Below are positions 52,167-59,559 of a stretch of 64,000 bases of DNA, piece after piece. Each line of letters starts with the position of its first letter. The stretch's first letter is position 1. The notes beneath the pieces were generated by a model. It saw only the letters and a program-made list of their open reading frames with translations, was not told the origin of the DNA and did not search any database. Both the position numbers and the translations under genes were made by a program. Source of the DNA: Microbacterium sp. 1.5R (GTDB lineage Bacteria; Actinomycetota; Actinomycetes; Actinomycetales; Microbacteriaceae); assembly GCF_001889265.1 (NCBI RefSeq), contig NZ_CP018151.1, forward strand, positions 1,860,001 through 1,924,000, read 5' to 3'.

Positions 52167-54269
52167 TCAGGCGTCGATCGATTCCCGGGAGAGGCGATCG
52201 GACGAATCGATGATGAACTCACGTCGAGGCGCGACCTCGTTGCCCATCAGCAGCTCGAACACGCGACCCGCCGCCTCGGCATCCTCCATGCGCACCCGGC
52301 GCAGCAGGCGGCCGCCGCGTTCCATGGTGGTCGTGGCGAGCTGCTCCGCGTCCATCTCGCCGAGTCCCTTGTAACGCTGAATCGGCTCGTGCCACCGCTT
52401 GCCCGACTTGCGGAGCTTGGCGAGAAGGGCGTGCATCTCCTGCTCGCTGTAGGTGTAGATGGTCTCGTTGGGCTTGGAGCCCGGATTCATCACGATCACG
52501 CGGTGCAGCGGCGGCACCGCGGCGAACACGCGGCCATGCTCGATGAGCGGCCGCATGTAGCGATAGAACAGCGTGAGCAGGAGCGTGCGGATGTGCGCGC
52601 CGTCGACATCGGCGTCGCTCATCAGGATGACCTTGCCGTACCGCGCGGCGTCGATGTCGAAGCTGCGGCCGGAGCCCGCACCGATCACCTGGATGATCGA
52701 TGCGCACTCGGCGTTCGACAGCATGTCGCCGACCGACGCCTTCTGGACGTTGAGGATCTTTCCGCGAATGGGCAGCAGCGCCTGGAACTCGCTGTTCCGC
52801 GCGTTCTTCGCTGTGCCGAGCGCGGAGTCTCCCTCGACGATGAACAGCTCGCTGCGCTCCACCTCGTTCGTGCGGCAGTCGACCAGCTTGGTCGGAAGGG
52901 TCGAGGACTCGAGCGCGTTCTTTCGGCGCTGGGTCTCCTTGTGGGCACGAGCGGAGACTCGTGCCTTCATCTCCGCGACCACCTTGTCGAGCAGCTGCGT
53001 CGACTGGCTCTTGTCGTCGCGCTTCGTTGAGCTGAATCGGGCGCCGAGATCCTTCCGGAGCACCTGGGCCACGATCTGACGTACGGCCGGGGTGCCGAGG
53101 ATCTCCTTCGTCTGGCCCTCGAACTGCGGCTCGGGGACGTTCACCGTGAGCACCGCGGTGAGCCCGGCGAGGACGTCGTCCTTCTCGAGCTTGTCGTTGC
53201 TGCCGACCTTCAATCGACGTGCGTTCTGCTCGACCTGCGAGCGCAGCACCTTGAGCAGCTCCTGCTCGAAGCCCTGCTGGTGGGTGCCGCCCTTGGGGGT
53301 CGCGATGATGTTGACGAACGACCGCGTGGTCGTGTCGTAGCCGGTGCCCCACCGCATCGCGATGTCGACGGCGCAGACGCGCTCCACATCTGTGGCGATC
53401 ATGTGGCCGTCGGCCTGCAGCACCGGCACTGTCTCTTTGAACGTGCCTTCGCCCTGGATGCGCCAGGTGTCGGTGACGGGAGCGTCGTTCGCGAGGTACT
53501 CGACGAACTCCGAGATGCCGCCGTCGTACCGGTAGGACGTCTCGATCGGCTGGCCCTCGACCTCGGCGCCGTTGGCCGCGCGCTCGTCGCGGATCACGAG
53601 TTCCAGCCCTGGGACGAGGAACGCCGTCTGACGTGCGCGAGTCACCAGGTCGTTGAGCTGGAACGCGGCATCCTTCGTGAAGATCTGGTGATCCGCCCAA
53701 TAGCGGATACGTGTTCCGCTCGTGCCGCGCGGCGCCTTGCCGACGACCCGCAGCTCGCTCTTGTCCTGGAACGGGGTGAACGGAGCGTCCGGCCGCTTCT
53801 CACCCTTGTCGGCGAAGAGTCCGGGCTCGCCGCGATGGAACGACATGGCATAGGTCTTGCCACCTCGGTCTACCTCGACGTCGAGCCGCTCCGAGAGGGC
53901 GTTCACCACAGAGGCGCCCACACCGTGCAGGCCACCGGATGCCGCGTACGAGCCTCCACCGAACTTGCCGCCGGCATGCAGCTTCGTGAAGACGACCTCG
54001 ACGCCGGTGAGACCGGTGCGCGGTTCGACGTCGACGGGGATGCCGCGACCGCGGTCGTGGACCTCGACACTGCCGTCCTCATGCAGGATGATGTCGATCT
54101 TCGAGCCGTTGCCCGCGACGGCCTCGTCGACGGCGTTGTCGATGATCTCCCAGAGGCAGTGCATCAGGCCCGGGGATCCGTTCGAGCCGATGTACATACC
54201 TGGGCGCTTGCGGACGGCCTCGAGCCCTTCGAGCACCTGGAGATGATGGGCGGAATACTCGGCGGTCAC
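52167..54269 (-). CDS. parE: DNA topoisomerase IV subunit B
   Basis: The 700-residue GHKL ATPase subunit has EIIDNAVDEA (Mg-ATP site), HGVGASVVNALS (lid) and, in the TOPRIM half, EGDSALGTAKNA and DADVDGAHI, with the closing KGLGEMD. GTG at 54269 gives the normal ParE N-terminus (AEYSAHHLQVLEGLEAVR). With ParC it decatenates daughter chromosomes. The open frame extends upstream into a non-coding leader. Confidence 0.93.
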   Translation of the reverse strand: MTAEYSAHHLQVLEGLEAVRKRPGMYIGSNGSPGLMHCLWEIIDNAVDEAVAGNGSKIDIILHEDGSVEVHDRGRGIPVDVEPRTGLTGVEVVFTKLHAGGKFGGGSYAASGGLHGVGASVVNALSERLDVEVDRGGKTYAMSFHRGEPGLFADKGEKRPDAPFTPFQDKSELRVVGKAPRGTSGTRIRYWADHQIFTKDAAFQLNDLVTRARQTAFLVPGLELVIRDERAANGAEVEGQPIETSYRYDGGISEFVEYLANDAPVTDTWRIQGEGTFKETVPVLQADGHMIATDVERVCAVDIAMRWGTGYDTTTRSFVNIIATPKGGTHQQGFEQELLKVLRSQVEQNARRLKVGSNDKLEKDDVLAGLTAVLTVNVPEPQFEGQTKEILGTPAVRQIVAQVLRKDLGARFSSTKRDDKSQSTQLLDKVVAEMKARVSARAHKETQRRKNALESSTLPTKLVDCRTNEVERSELFIVEGDSALGTAKNARNSEFQALLPIRGKILNVQKASVGDMLSNAECASIIQVIGAGSGRSFDIDAARYGKVILMSDADVDGAHIRTLLLTLFYRYMRPLIEHGRVFAAVPPLHRVIVMNPGSKPNETIYTYSEQEMHALLAKLRKSGKRWHEPIQRYKGLGEMDAEQLATTTMERGGRLLRRVRMEDAEAAGRVFELLMGNEVAPRREFIIDSSDRLSRESIDA

Positions 54270-54451
54270 AATCTCCGAGTCTATTCGCGATGCCTCTCCA
54301 CCAGCCGCAGACACTCCCCGGGAGCCCTCAGTACGGCACCCGCGCGTACGCGCTGAGCGAAACACGCCGCAAACCGGGCATGCACACAGCCCCAGCGTGG
54401 TTGTATTGAACACGCCCAGCCAGCGAACCCGACACTCAAGGAGGCCCCGAG

Positions 54452-54718: not shown

Positions 54719-55759
54719 TTAAGGGGTGGTGACCCGGCGCACGCGGCTCGTGAGCCGGGTGAGGATCTCCTCGCCGACGGAGTCGACGCGCTCGGCGAGG
54801 GTCGTCGCACTCGCTTCTCCGTGCTCGCCCGCGCCGAACAGCCAGACCGAGTCGCCGATCTGCATCCCCGGCCACCCCTGGACCAGCGACGTCGTCTCGT
54901 CGATCCGCAGCAGCTCGCGAGATCCGCCCGGGGTGCCCACGTCTGCTCCCGCGAGAGTGGACGGGATGCCGTCGAACGACCCGACGCCGACCTGAGCGTT
55001 CCCGTCCACGATCTTCCGGACCGTCGCCGTGAGCTCGGCCACCGGCGTGACACCCGGCAGGTCGGGTCCCTCCGCCGAGCGGACGCCGTAGCAGAACGCC
55101 CCGATCCGAGACAGCGAGCCGCGGAGCTCCGGCCGCCACCAGGACGCAGCGGATGCCGTCAGGTGCAGCGCCTCGGGCGTCGGTCCGGACTGCTCCACGA
55201 CACGGACGGCATCGAGGAACAGGGCCTGAGCATCGTCGTCCTCGTCGTCGCTCGCCTCGGCGAGATGGCTCCAGATCCCGGCGAGCTCGAGGTGTCCCGC
55301 CGCTTCACCCGCGCGCACATCGGCGACGGTGCGCTCCCACTCGGCCGGGAGCAGACCGTTGCGACGCAGCCCCGTGTCGATCTTGAGGTGGATCCGTGCC
55401 CGCGCGCCGGCATGCGCAGCCCTGGCGGTGATGCGCGCCAGGTACTCCGCCGATCCGACGCCGAGGTCGATGTCGGCGCGCAGCGCGTCGTCGATCTCCT
55501 CGTCCGTCGAGGTGACCCACGCGAAGATCCGACCGGTGTCGCCGAGCACGCGTCGTGCTTCGACCCCGCTTCGGACGTCGTATGACCCGTACCACTCGAC
55601 GCCCGTGTCCTTCGCCGCCTCGACGGCCCACCGGAGTCCGTGACCGTACGCGTCGTCCTTGAGGACGACCATGAGCTCCGACGGGGCGATGCGATCGCGG
55701 ACCGCGCGGATGTTCGCTCGGAACAGGTCGGTGTCGATCCGCAGCTCCGGCCGACTCAT
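54719..55759 (-). CDS. Alanine racemase-like protein B (has PLP lysine, lacks catalytic tyrosine)
   Basis: The 346-residue protein has a complete fold-type III barrel: Lys34 in VLKDDAYGHG for PLP, HLKIDTGLRRNG with the equivalents of Lys129 and Arg136, LAGIWSHLA, and SLSRIGAFCYGV with the pyridine-contacting Arg. Its C-terminal domain is divergent: where other racemases have VSYG with the catalytic Tyr265, it has VGVG (Val259), and the GYADG and MDQ motifs are missing. ATG overlaps the stop of the preceding racemase-like gene as ATGA. Alone it should be inactive or altered; the preceding protein carries the missing residues. Confidence 0.88.
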   Translation of the reverse strand: MSRPELRIDTDLFRANIRAVRDRIAPSELMVVLKDDAYGHGLRWAVEAAKDTGVEWYGSYDVRSGVEARRVLGDTGRIFAWVTSTDEEIDDALRADIDLGVGSAEYLARITARAAHAGARARIHLKIDTGLRRNGLLPAEWERTVADVRAGEAAGHLELAGIWSHLAEASDDEDDDAQALFLDAVRVVEQSGPTPEALHLTASAASWWRPELRGSLSRIGAFCYGVRSAEGPDLPGVTPVAELTATVRKIVDGNAQVGVGSFDGIPSTLAGADVGTPGGSRELLRIDETTSLVQGWPGMQIGDSVWLFGAGEHGEASATTLAERVDSVGEEILTRLTSRVRRVTTP

Positions 55760-56463
55760 GCCTCCCACCCCCGCTCCGCGTGTGCCCCCGCGACGGTGAC
55801 GAGCTCGGCGATCGTGAGTCCGGTGACGGCGCTCCATCGGGCGAGCCCGGGAGCGGCCGGCCCGCGACCTCCGAAGTAGGTGGCCTCGGCGCCCACGGTG
55901 ACGGCGGCGGATCCCTGCAGATCTATCACGCACACATCCATCGCGACACGCCCGATGATCGGGCGCTGCACACCGTCGATCTCCACGTGGGCGGCATTGC
56001 CCAGCGCGCGCACGATCCCCTGGGCGTAGCCGCCGGTGATGAGTGCGGCCGTCGTGTCATGGGCCACTCGATGGGTGTAGCCGTAGGAGACCGCGTCTCC
56101 GGCCCTGAGCGGCTTCGTGGAGAGCACTCTGCCGACGAGCCGCATGACCGGCCTCGCGCTCAGTGCTCCCTCCGCATCGGGGAGCCCGTAGAGCAGGAAG
56201 GGGTCGATATCCGGTGCGCCGGTCGTCACGGCGTCGATGCCTTCGAGAGCCAGGGCCTCGACTTCCTCGGCATGGTCGACCAGCACGGCCTCCGCACCGG
56301 CGGCGACCACCGCGTGTGCGACGGAGAGCACCCCATGCCCCCAGGCATCGCGGCGGAGGTCGGCGACGCGTCCCCCTGCATCGACGGCGGCAGCGGATGC
56401 GACCGCGAGCGCCGACCGCGAGATCATCGCGCGCGGGCGGGAGCTGGATGTCTTCTCACACAC
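55756..56463 (-). CDS. Alanine racemase-like protein A (C-terminal catalytic domain, no PLP lysine)
   Basis: The 235-residue protein keeps only a shortened barrel start, where the PLP lysine is replaced (LRRDAWGHG, Arg37 at the Lys39 position), then passes straight into a full racemase C-terminal domain. That domain has the catalytic tyrosine Tyr127 in VSYGYTH, Tyr146 in GYAQG and Met175-Asp176 in GRVAMD. About 130 barrel residues are absent compared with usual racemases. The gene is intact, not frameshifted, and coupled to gene B by a 4-bp overlap. I infer that A supplies its C-terminal domain to the barrel of B. GTG start at 56463; no close ribosome-binding consensus. Confidence 0.85.
   Translation of the reverse strand: MCEKTSSSRPRAMISRSALAVASAAAVDAGGRVADLRRDAWGHGVLSVAHAVVAAGAEAVLVDHAEEVEALALEGIDAVTTGAPDIDPFLLYGLPDAEGALSARPVMRLVGRVLSTKPLRAGDAVSYGYTHRVAHDTTAALITGGYAQGIVRALGNAAHVEIDGVQRPIIGRVAMDVCVIDLQGSAAVTVGAEATYFGGRGPAAPGLARWSAVTGLTIAELVTVAGAHAERGWEA

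Positions 56464-58326: not shown

Positions 58327-58327
<1 letters not shown>
57635..58327 (-). CDS. CofE-like coenzyme F420-0:L-glutamate ligase family protein
   Basis: The 230-residue protein matches the CofE/FbiB ligase fold: GDLLFVTEKIVAITQG near the N-terminus, a YGIGLGMPETM segment, GDFYRIAGDKARAIDGPT and VDINDIGGN with acidic metal ligands. CofE adds glutamates to F420-0 using GTP. No other F420 genes are in the window, so the substrate may be different. It overlaps the sigA stop (ATG at 58327 or GTG at 58330) and is probably co-transcribed with sigA. Confidence 0.78.

Positions 58328-59559
<1,232 letters not shown>

Follow-up and report, generated by a model that had tools for sequence, protein, structure and literature searches.

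Two adjoining racemase-like genes in Microbacterium sp. 1.5R

The window analysed here is a 64,000-nucleotide stretch of Microbacterium sp. 1.5R (NZ_CP018151.1, positions 1,860,001 to 1,924,000). It contains two overlapping genes, A and B, whose products each resemble part of an alanine racemase and are best read as obligate partners in a heterodimer that has a single active site. Gene A (55756..56463, − strand, GTG start) encodes a 235-amino-acid protein with a degenerate short barrel and a complete racemase C-terminal domain, and carries the primed half of the site, the one contributed by the partner subunit. Gene B (54719..55759, − strand, ATG start) encodes 346 amino acids, with a complete pyridoxal 5′-phosphate (PLP) barrel and a C-terminal domain without the catalytic-tyrosine loop or the GYADG and MDQ motifs. 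The stop codon of A and the start codon of B share an ATGA (55756..55759, − strand). An earlier note on this DNA, made from the sequence alone, had described both genes, and its coordinates, strands, lengths and overlap were all correct when the window was read again. It also suggested that the overlap gives equal synthesis of the two proteins. Where A and B are separate genes and their spacing was measured, the stop codon of A lies between −8 and +32 nucleotides from the first residue matched by the B profile, so the ATGA overlap is not a general feature and equal synthesis is not a conserved one.

The sole Pfam match of A is Ala_racemase_C (residues 106–231). B matches Ala_racemase_N over residues 8–227 and has a weak match to Ala_racemase_C that begins at profile position 35. 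Neither protein reaches the 168-bit cut-off of the NCBIfam alr equivalog (A, 84.9; B, 117.2). Single-chain AlphaFold2 models were built from shallow alignments of 12 rows for B and 13 rows for A. The B model (predicted local distance difference test score, 88.5) aligns in Foldseek with Streptomyces coelicolor Alr (5fag) at a template-modelling (TM) score of 0.93. The A model (82.3) reaches a TM score of 0.79 over A's own length, and the 50 Foldseek hits listed for it are all racemases with this fold, some of them engineered. B is thus predicted to adopt the alanine racemase superfamily fold of a barrel plus a C-terminal beta domain, and A to comprise the C-terminal domain and a partial barrel.

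Complementary active-site residues in A and B

Residue numbers outside the two window proteins follow Geobacillus numbering, also for His166, Tyr284, Met312 and Asp313. Lys39, Tyr43, Arg136, Ser204, Arg219, Tyr265, Arg290, Arg309 and Tyr354 are numbered as in PMC3485190. In the window, the PLP lysine (Lys39 equivalent) is Lys34 of B (codon 55658..55660, − strand), which is invariant in a 12-sequence alignment. The equivalent of the catalytic Tyr265′ is Tyr127 of A (codon 56083..56085, − strand), located within VSYG and, like Arg37, Tyr146, Met175 and Asp176 of the same protein, invariant in a 13-sequence alignment. All of these residues had been placed correctly in the earlier note, which was also right that GYADG and MDQ are gone from B; its reading of Val259 of B as the tyrosine substitute was mistaken. 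The tyrosine-bearing loop has been deleted, and no residue takes the tyrosine's place: 15 columns are missing from the ten split B rows printed, and all 90 B rows have a gap where the tyrosine would align.

The main residue table holds 90 A and 90 B rows, four of the 90 being second fetches of the same locus. Together, the residue tables cover 93 split loci (50 + 7 + 36) with 25 genus labels from one family. Besides the window, four of these loci are from named records, including that of Microcella alkaliphila, and a few may share a species with another locus. Lys39, Tyr43, Arg136, His166, Ser204 and Arg219 are kept in 90/90 B rows and Tyr265 in none. In the A rows, Tyr265 is kept in 89 of 90, the remaining one (L112) being cut by a contig end, as are Arg290 (90/90), Met312 (90/90), Asp or Asn at 313 (90/90) and Arg309 (88/90). 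Lys39 occurs in 0/90 A rows, ten of which lack any barrel at that place. Seven further pairs show the same residue pattern, except for Ala at 309 in two of the seven A rows. Lys39, Tyr265 and Tyr354 are all present in 13/13 tabulated canonical racemases; neither A nor B has both Lys39 and Tyr265, which come together across the pair and share one chain only in three fusions. The complementary halves of one alanine-racemase active site described in the earlier note recur in the 93 loci read, and the pattern is far beyond chance. With the residues divided in this way, a whole site would require contact between A and B, and each dimer could have no more than one.

Co-occurrence, fusions and selection

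When 295 same-genus genomes were searched with B and with A, 246 gave a B match below 1e-45, and the matches of the other 49 were weaker, at the level of ordinary racemases. By search score, an A match above that level was present in all 246 B genomes except G090, G168 and G264. Reading of the loci recovered A in G090 and G168 as fusions with B, and in G264 as a long-barrel form. Among the 49, two incomplete assemblies (G091, 68% complete; G151, 72% complete) carry pieces of the pair, and the broken pieces in G226 (550 contigs) are tentatively read as a canonical racemase. Genomes with B but without A, which the earlier note had said would refute its proposal, were not seen among the 295, and every genome in which A turned up also carries B or fragments of it.

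The place usually occupied by the pair, next to a parE-like gene, was inspected in 30 of the 49 pair-lacking genomes, and a profile search with E up to 1 found no trace of A or B in the 1.5 kb beside parE. These 30 sites have a small gene upstream of parE, followed by an ATP-grasp gene (29 sites) or by orf57587 (one site, L118). On a ParE tree of 79 rows, made by a quick method, the pair-lacking genomes require five changes, three of them forced by well-supported branches; they form one large group that encloses three pair-bearing rows, together with two single cases. Co-occurrence in the genus, the empty sites and the ParE tree pattern indicate that A and B are gained and lost together.

Among 249 same-family genomes scanned, 101 from 41 of 78 genera had B-like matches at 1e-40 or better, some of these matches being ordinary or full-length enzymes. 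Forty of the 101 were fetched in descending order with some skipped, and comprised 38 loci with A directly upstream of B, one A–B fusion (L104) and one full-length racemase tandem (L109). Twenty more regions from the family and wider-order scans contained seven pairs, three tandems of alr plus a full-length racemase, and ten single canonical racemases. A further 40 same-genus loci were fetched, four of which repeat earlier ones. Throughout the split loci fetched, A lies directly upstream of B or shares its frame, apart from the truncated A of L112; in L019 the contig ends before A, and the A match sits on another contig. A scan of 297 wider-order genomes with the B profile gave mostly canonical racemases and, among the matches listed, out-of-family rows mostly had the longer canonical match length. 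One candidate split pair, L054 ([Actinomadura] parvosata), was rejected, as its single 410-amino-acid frame matches both profiles and there is no separate A; it was taken as an ordinary racemase.

Natural fusions of A and B in one open frame occur at L056, L057 and L104. The L056 and L057 fusions retain only the C-terminal domain of A, in an unusual C-domain/barrel/C-domain order. Across the loci, the barrel of A ranges from nearly complete (L107, L104) through the form of about 235 amino acids in the window to an almost bare C-terminal domain (L089, L091, L056, L057). Both genes are under purifying selection, with dN/dS values of 0.09–0.15 for A and B when the window was compared with L012 and with L013, and L012 with L013.

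The genomic site of the pair

In most loci with flanks read, the pair lies between sigA and parE, which in the window correspond to sigA at 58327..59559 (− strand) and a parE-like type II topoisomerase subunit B gene at 52167..54440 (− strand); neither flank was seen in a few loci (e.g., L169, L178, L190). The window also carries an ATP-grasp gene (PF14397; 56492..57559, + strand), which belongs to the context rather than to the racemase and occupies the place of murT-gatD in other genomes. Other genera have murT-gatD genes between sigA and A–B. Pfam searches on ten such frames confirmed the GatD-like and MurT-like proteins of L090, L095 and L103, the GatD of L084 and the MurT of L085 and L107; one L107 frame was not confirmed. 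In Microcella alkaliphila (L053), which is among the pair-bearing loci, the ATP-grasp gene is found directly upstream of A–B in the same direction, as if in one operon.

Eighty same-genus genomes (43 pair-lacking, 37 pair-bearing) were searched for the ATP-grasp gene and for a MurT protein. The counts use the MurT protein query, since a Pfam MurT_C search (26 genomes) misses the murT-like gene of G287. The ATP-grasp gene alone was found in 66 genomes and MurT alone in 13; one genome (G026) combined MurT with a weak, partial hit for the ATP-grasp gene (2e-14), and none had neither. In six further genomes without the ATP-grasp gene, murT-gatD adjoins A–B. The 40 same-genus loci contain murT-gatD in ten cases, the ATP-grasp gene in 29 and both in none; L174 has neither within the stretch read, with murT a few kb away in its genome. 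Pair-lacking genomes have more distant ATP-grasp types, at times two in tandem. Judging from these counts, murT and the ATP-grasp gene are mutually exclusive in the genus. An obligate partnership of either with A and B was considered and rejected, as each is also found in pair-lacking genomes. The target of MurT-GatD is the D-Glu of lipid II and, given this and the mutual replacement, the ATP-grasp enzyme probably serves the same step. The pattern suggests a so far unstudied replacement of MurT-GatD by an ATP-grasp gene.

Substrate and proposed mechanism

PMC3485190 describes the gap between Tyr354 and Tyr265′ as defining alanine specificity, with Thr or Ala at position 354 in lysine-preferring racemases. 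This tyrosine of the last helix, associated with alanine specificity and phosphate contact, is absent from every B read. Its position holds Glu in 69 and Asp in 21 of the 90 B rows, is acidic in 7/7 further pairs, and corresponds to Glu330 in the window (codon 54770..54772, − strand). An acidic residue here would indicate a substrate with a cationic side chain. Microbacterium sp. 1.5R has two other full-length racemases, one of which has Tyr354 and lies in a glmS-alr-tsaE context, and is thus the canonical Alr. A second, canonical-level racemase match is present in nearly every pair-bearing same-genus genome. Given the change from Tyr354 to Glu or Asp and the separate Alr, alanine was set aside, and the substrate of A–B is probably another amino acid. 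According to PMC10757982, Microbacterium walls differ between strains in having D-ornithine, L-lysine or diaminobutyrate, clusters III, IV and VIII contain exceptions, and M. oxydans and M. suaedae belong to D-ornithine groups. Both species carry the A–B pair.

The barrel of B would bind PLP through Lys34, Tyr38 and the equivalents of Arg136, His166, Ser204 and Arg219, and supply one catalytic base. The C-terminal domain of A would cap this barrel and supply the other base, Tyr127, together with Tyr146, Arg152, Arg172, Met175 and Asp176. An ordinary racemase dimer has a second site, the mirror image of the first; here it would be dead on both sides. The acidic residue of B at the Tyr354 position would suit a substrate with a cationic side chain, and the product could be D-ornithine in many Microbacterium, with D-diaminobutyrate or D-lysine as possibilities for other genera. 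What the genomes show directly is that the residues are complementary, that the genes co-occur in a constant order, are sometimes fused and are under selection, and that their site is shared with murT-gatD or the ATP-grasp gene. From these features we infer dimerisation, activity, substrate and a role in peptidoglycan, that is, a racemase making D-ornithine or a similar D-diamino acid for type-B peptidoglycan. The three fusions, purifying selection and retention of the complementary residues all support an obligate one-site heterodimer, and we regard it as quite probable that A–B is such an enzyme, with the wall D-diamino acid as its most likely job. A broader proposal is more tentative, and we rate it a little below an even balance: the D-diamino acid of the whole family's walls would come from an obligate heterodimeric racemase with one site, without precedent in this fold and derived from a split acidic-pocket copy of alr, and the sigA–parE site would be an exchangeable cassette (pair present or absent, murT-gatD or ATP-grasp ligase) that sets the peptidoglycan type.

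Several observations weigh against this interpretation. The two neighbouring genes are not confined to pair-bearing genomes: an ATP-grasp match was found in 41/43 pair-lacking and 26/37 pair-bearing genomes, and murT in 2/43 and 12/37, respectively. The other non-canonical racemase of the window's own genome (L002) has, by eye, His at position 354, and loss of the tyrosine is therefore not unique to B. A second racemase match is missing from five pair-bearing genomes (G003, G030, G044, G132, G163; 72–94% complete). With an acidic residue at 354 the PLP-phosphate contact is lost as well, which could reflect some other change of chemistry. Finally, the link to D-ornithine comes from two species, M. 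oxydans and M. suaedae. As a separate observation, L002 (G000:C1:305238-306305; L008) adjoins D-Ala-D-Ala-ligase-like and VanY-like open frames, and its surroundings look like a VanG-type arrangement.

The closest sequence and fold relatives of A and B are alanine racemases, and the heterodimer could act on alanine or another small amino acid as a spare alanine or serine racemase. We consider this unlikely, as position 354 is acidic in 90/90 B rows, the genome already has its canonical Alr in the glmS-alr-tsaE context, and most of the 49 pair-less genomes evidently live on a single canonical-level match (a few show two or more). Still less probable is a regulatory or stabilising A alongside a B with non-racemase chemistry, such as decarboxylation or PLP binding as in YggS-like proteins. 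Fold type III does include non-racemases and B lacks a second base of its own, but a purely structural A would not be expected to lose nearly all of its barrel and yet retain the catalytic tyrosine, Met312 and Arg290 in all complete rows. The Alr-like C-terminal domain of A could also pair mainly with the matching barrel of the housekeeping Alr, so that an exchange of caps modulates the supply of D-alanine; this seems highly improbable for a protein found only alongside B or pieces of B, adjoining it in the split loci and sharing one frame with it in three. That A and B are decaying pseudogenes of a duplicated racemase, as their short lengths and the interrupted copies in a few low-quality assemblies (G091, G251) might imply, is scarcely credible in view of dN/dS in three comparisons, open frames across the family and invariant residues.

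Possible origin of the split

Three genera (g32, g11, g5) contain a full-length racemase, here called X (L109/L150, L151, L152), that retains every catalytic residue and has Asp or Glu at 354. It is located directly after the housekeeping alr, in the order glmS-alr-X-tsaE. Twelve genomes of these genera were matched, with one match each at 1e-40 or better, and four were fetched. In the barrel tree, X and B form one clade (support 97/92), within which X occurs at two separate positions, and the barrels of A are long branches. In the C-domain tree, A is held together weakly (77/89). The X enzymes are likely homodimeric relatives of the split enzyme, and their acidic 354 and position beside alr suggest the ancestor. 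The simplest story would be a tandem duplication of alr, followed by acquisition of a new acidic pocket and then by distribution of the catalytic bases over two genes. In the ten split B rows printed, the tyrosine-loop deletion shares its left limit, which argues for a single splitting event, whereas X occupies two places in the barrel tree; the split may have occurred once or twice.

Comparison with known systems

The earlier note knew of no described racemase of this form. Likewise, a search of full-text literature whose coverage leaves out most subscription journals found neither a split or heterodimeric alanine-type racemase nor a gene for the D-ornithine of these walls. A one-site heterodimer across a family would show a shared interface divided between paralogues, with intermediates still visible as long barrel, short barrel, almost bare C-terminal domain and fusion. 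The pair is also a concrete gene candidate for the D-diamino acid of type-B peptidoglycan, the basis of cell-wall typing in this family.

Enzymes of the alanine racemase fold are textbook homodimers with two shared sites. Alanine racemase itself (Alr, fold type III; 1vfh, 5fac, 1xfc, 1bd0) resembles B in its barrel fold and PLP site, and A in its C-terminal domain and partner residues. As read from the genes, A and B differ from it in that each has half the residues, with one site at most, and in the change of Tyr354 to Glu or Asp. A catalytic subunit and a degenerate paralogue make one site in serine palmitoyltransferase (LCB1/LCB2) and in the trypanosome S-adenosylmethionine decarboxylase (AdoMetDC)–prozyme complex. 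Those enzymes have other folds and catalyse other reactions, whereas in A–B both chains are predicted to give a catalytic base. The lysine and broad-specificity racemases Lyr and Bar (4dza, 4dyj) also have Tyr354 replaced (PMC3485190). They share Arg-Asn at 136–137 with B of the window (Arg133-Asn134), a feature that is not diagnostic, as it also occurs in canonical Alr of this group, that of the same genome included, and Ala or Gly takes the place of the Asn in some B rows. Unlike A–B, they are homodimers with complete sites, have Thr or Ala rather than Glu or Asp at 354, and are distant in sequence. The full-length acidic-354 racemases (X) belong to the barrel clade of B and share its Asp or Glu at 354; they differ in having Lys39 and Tyr265 in one chain and in their glmS-alr-X-tsaE position, and are presumably homodimers.
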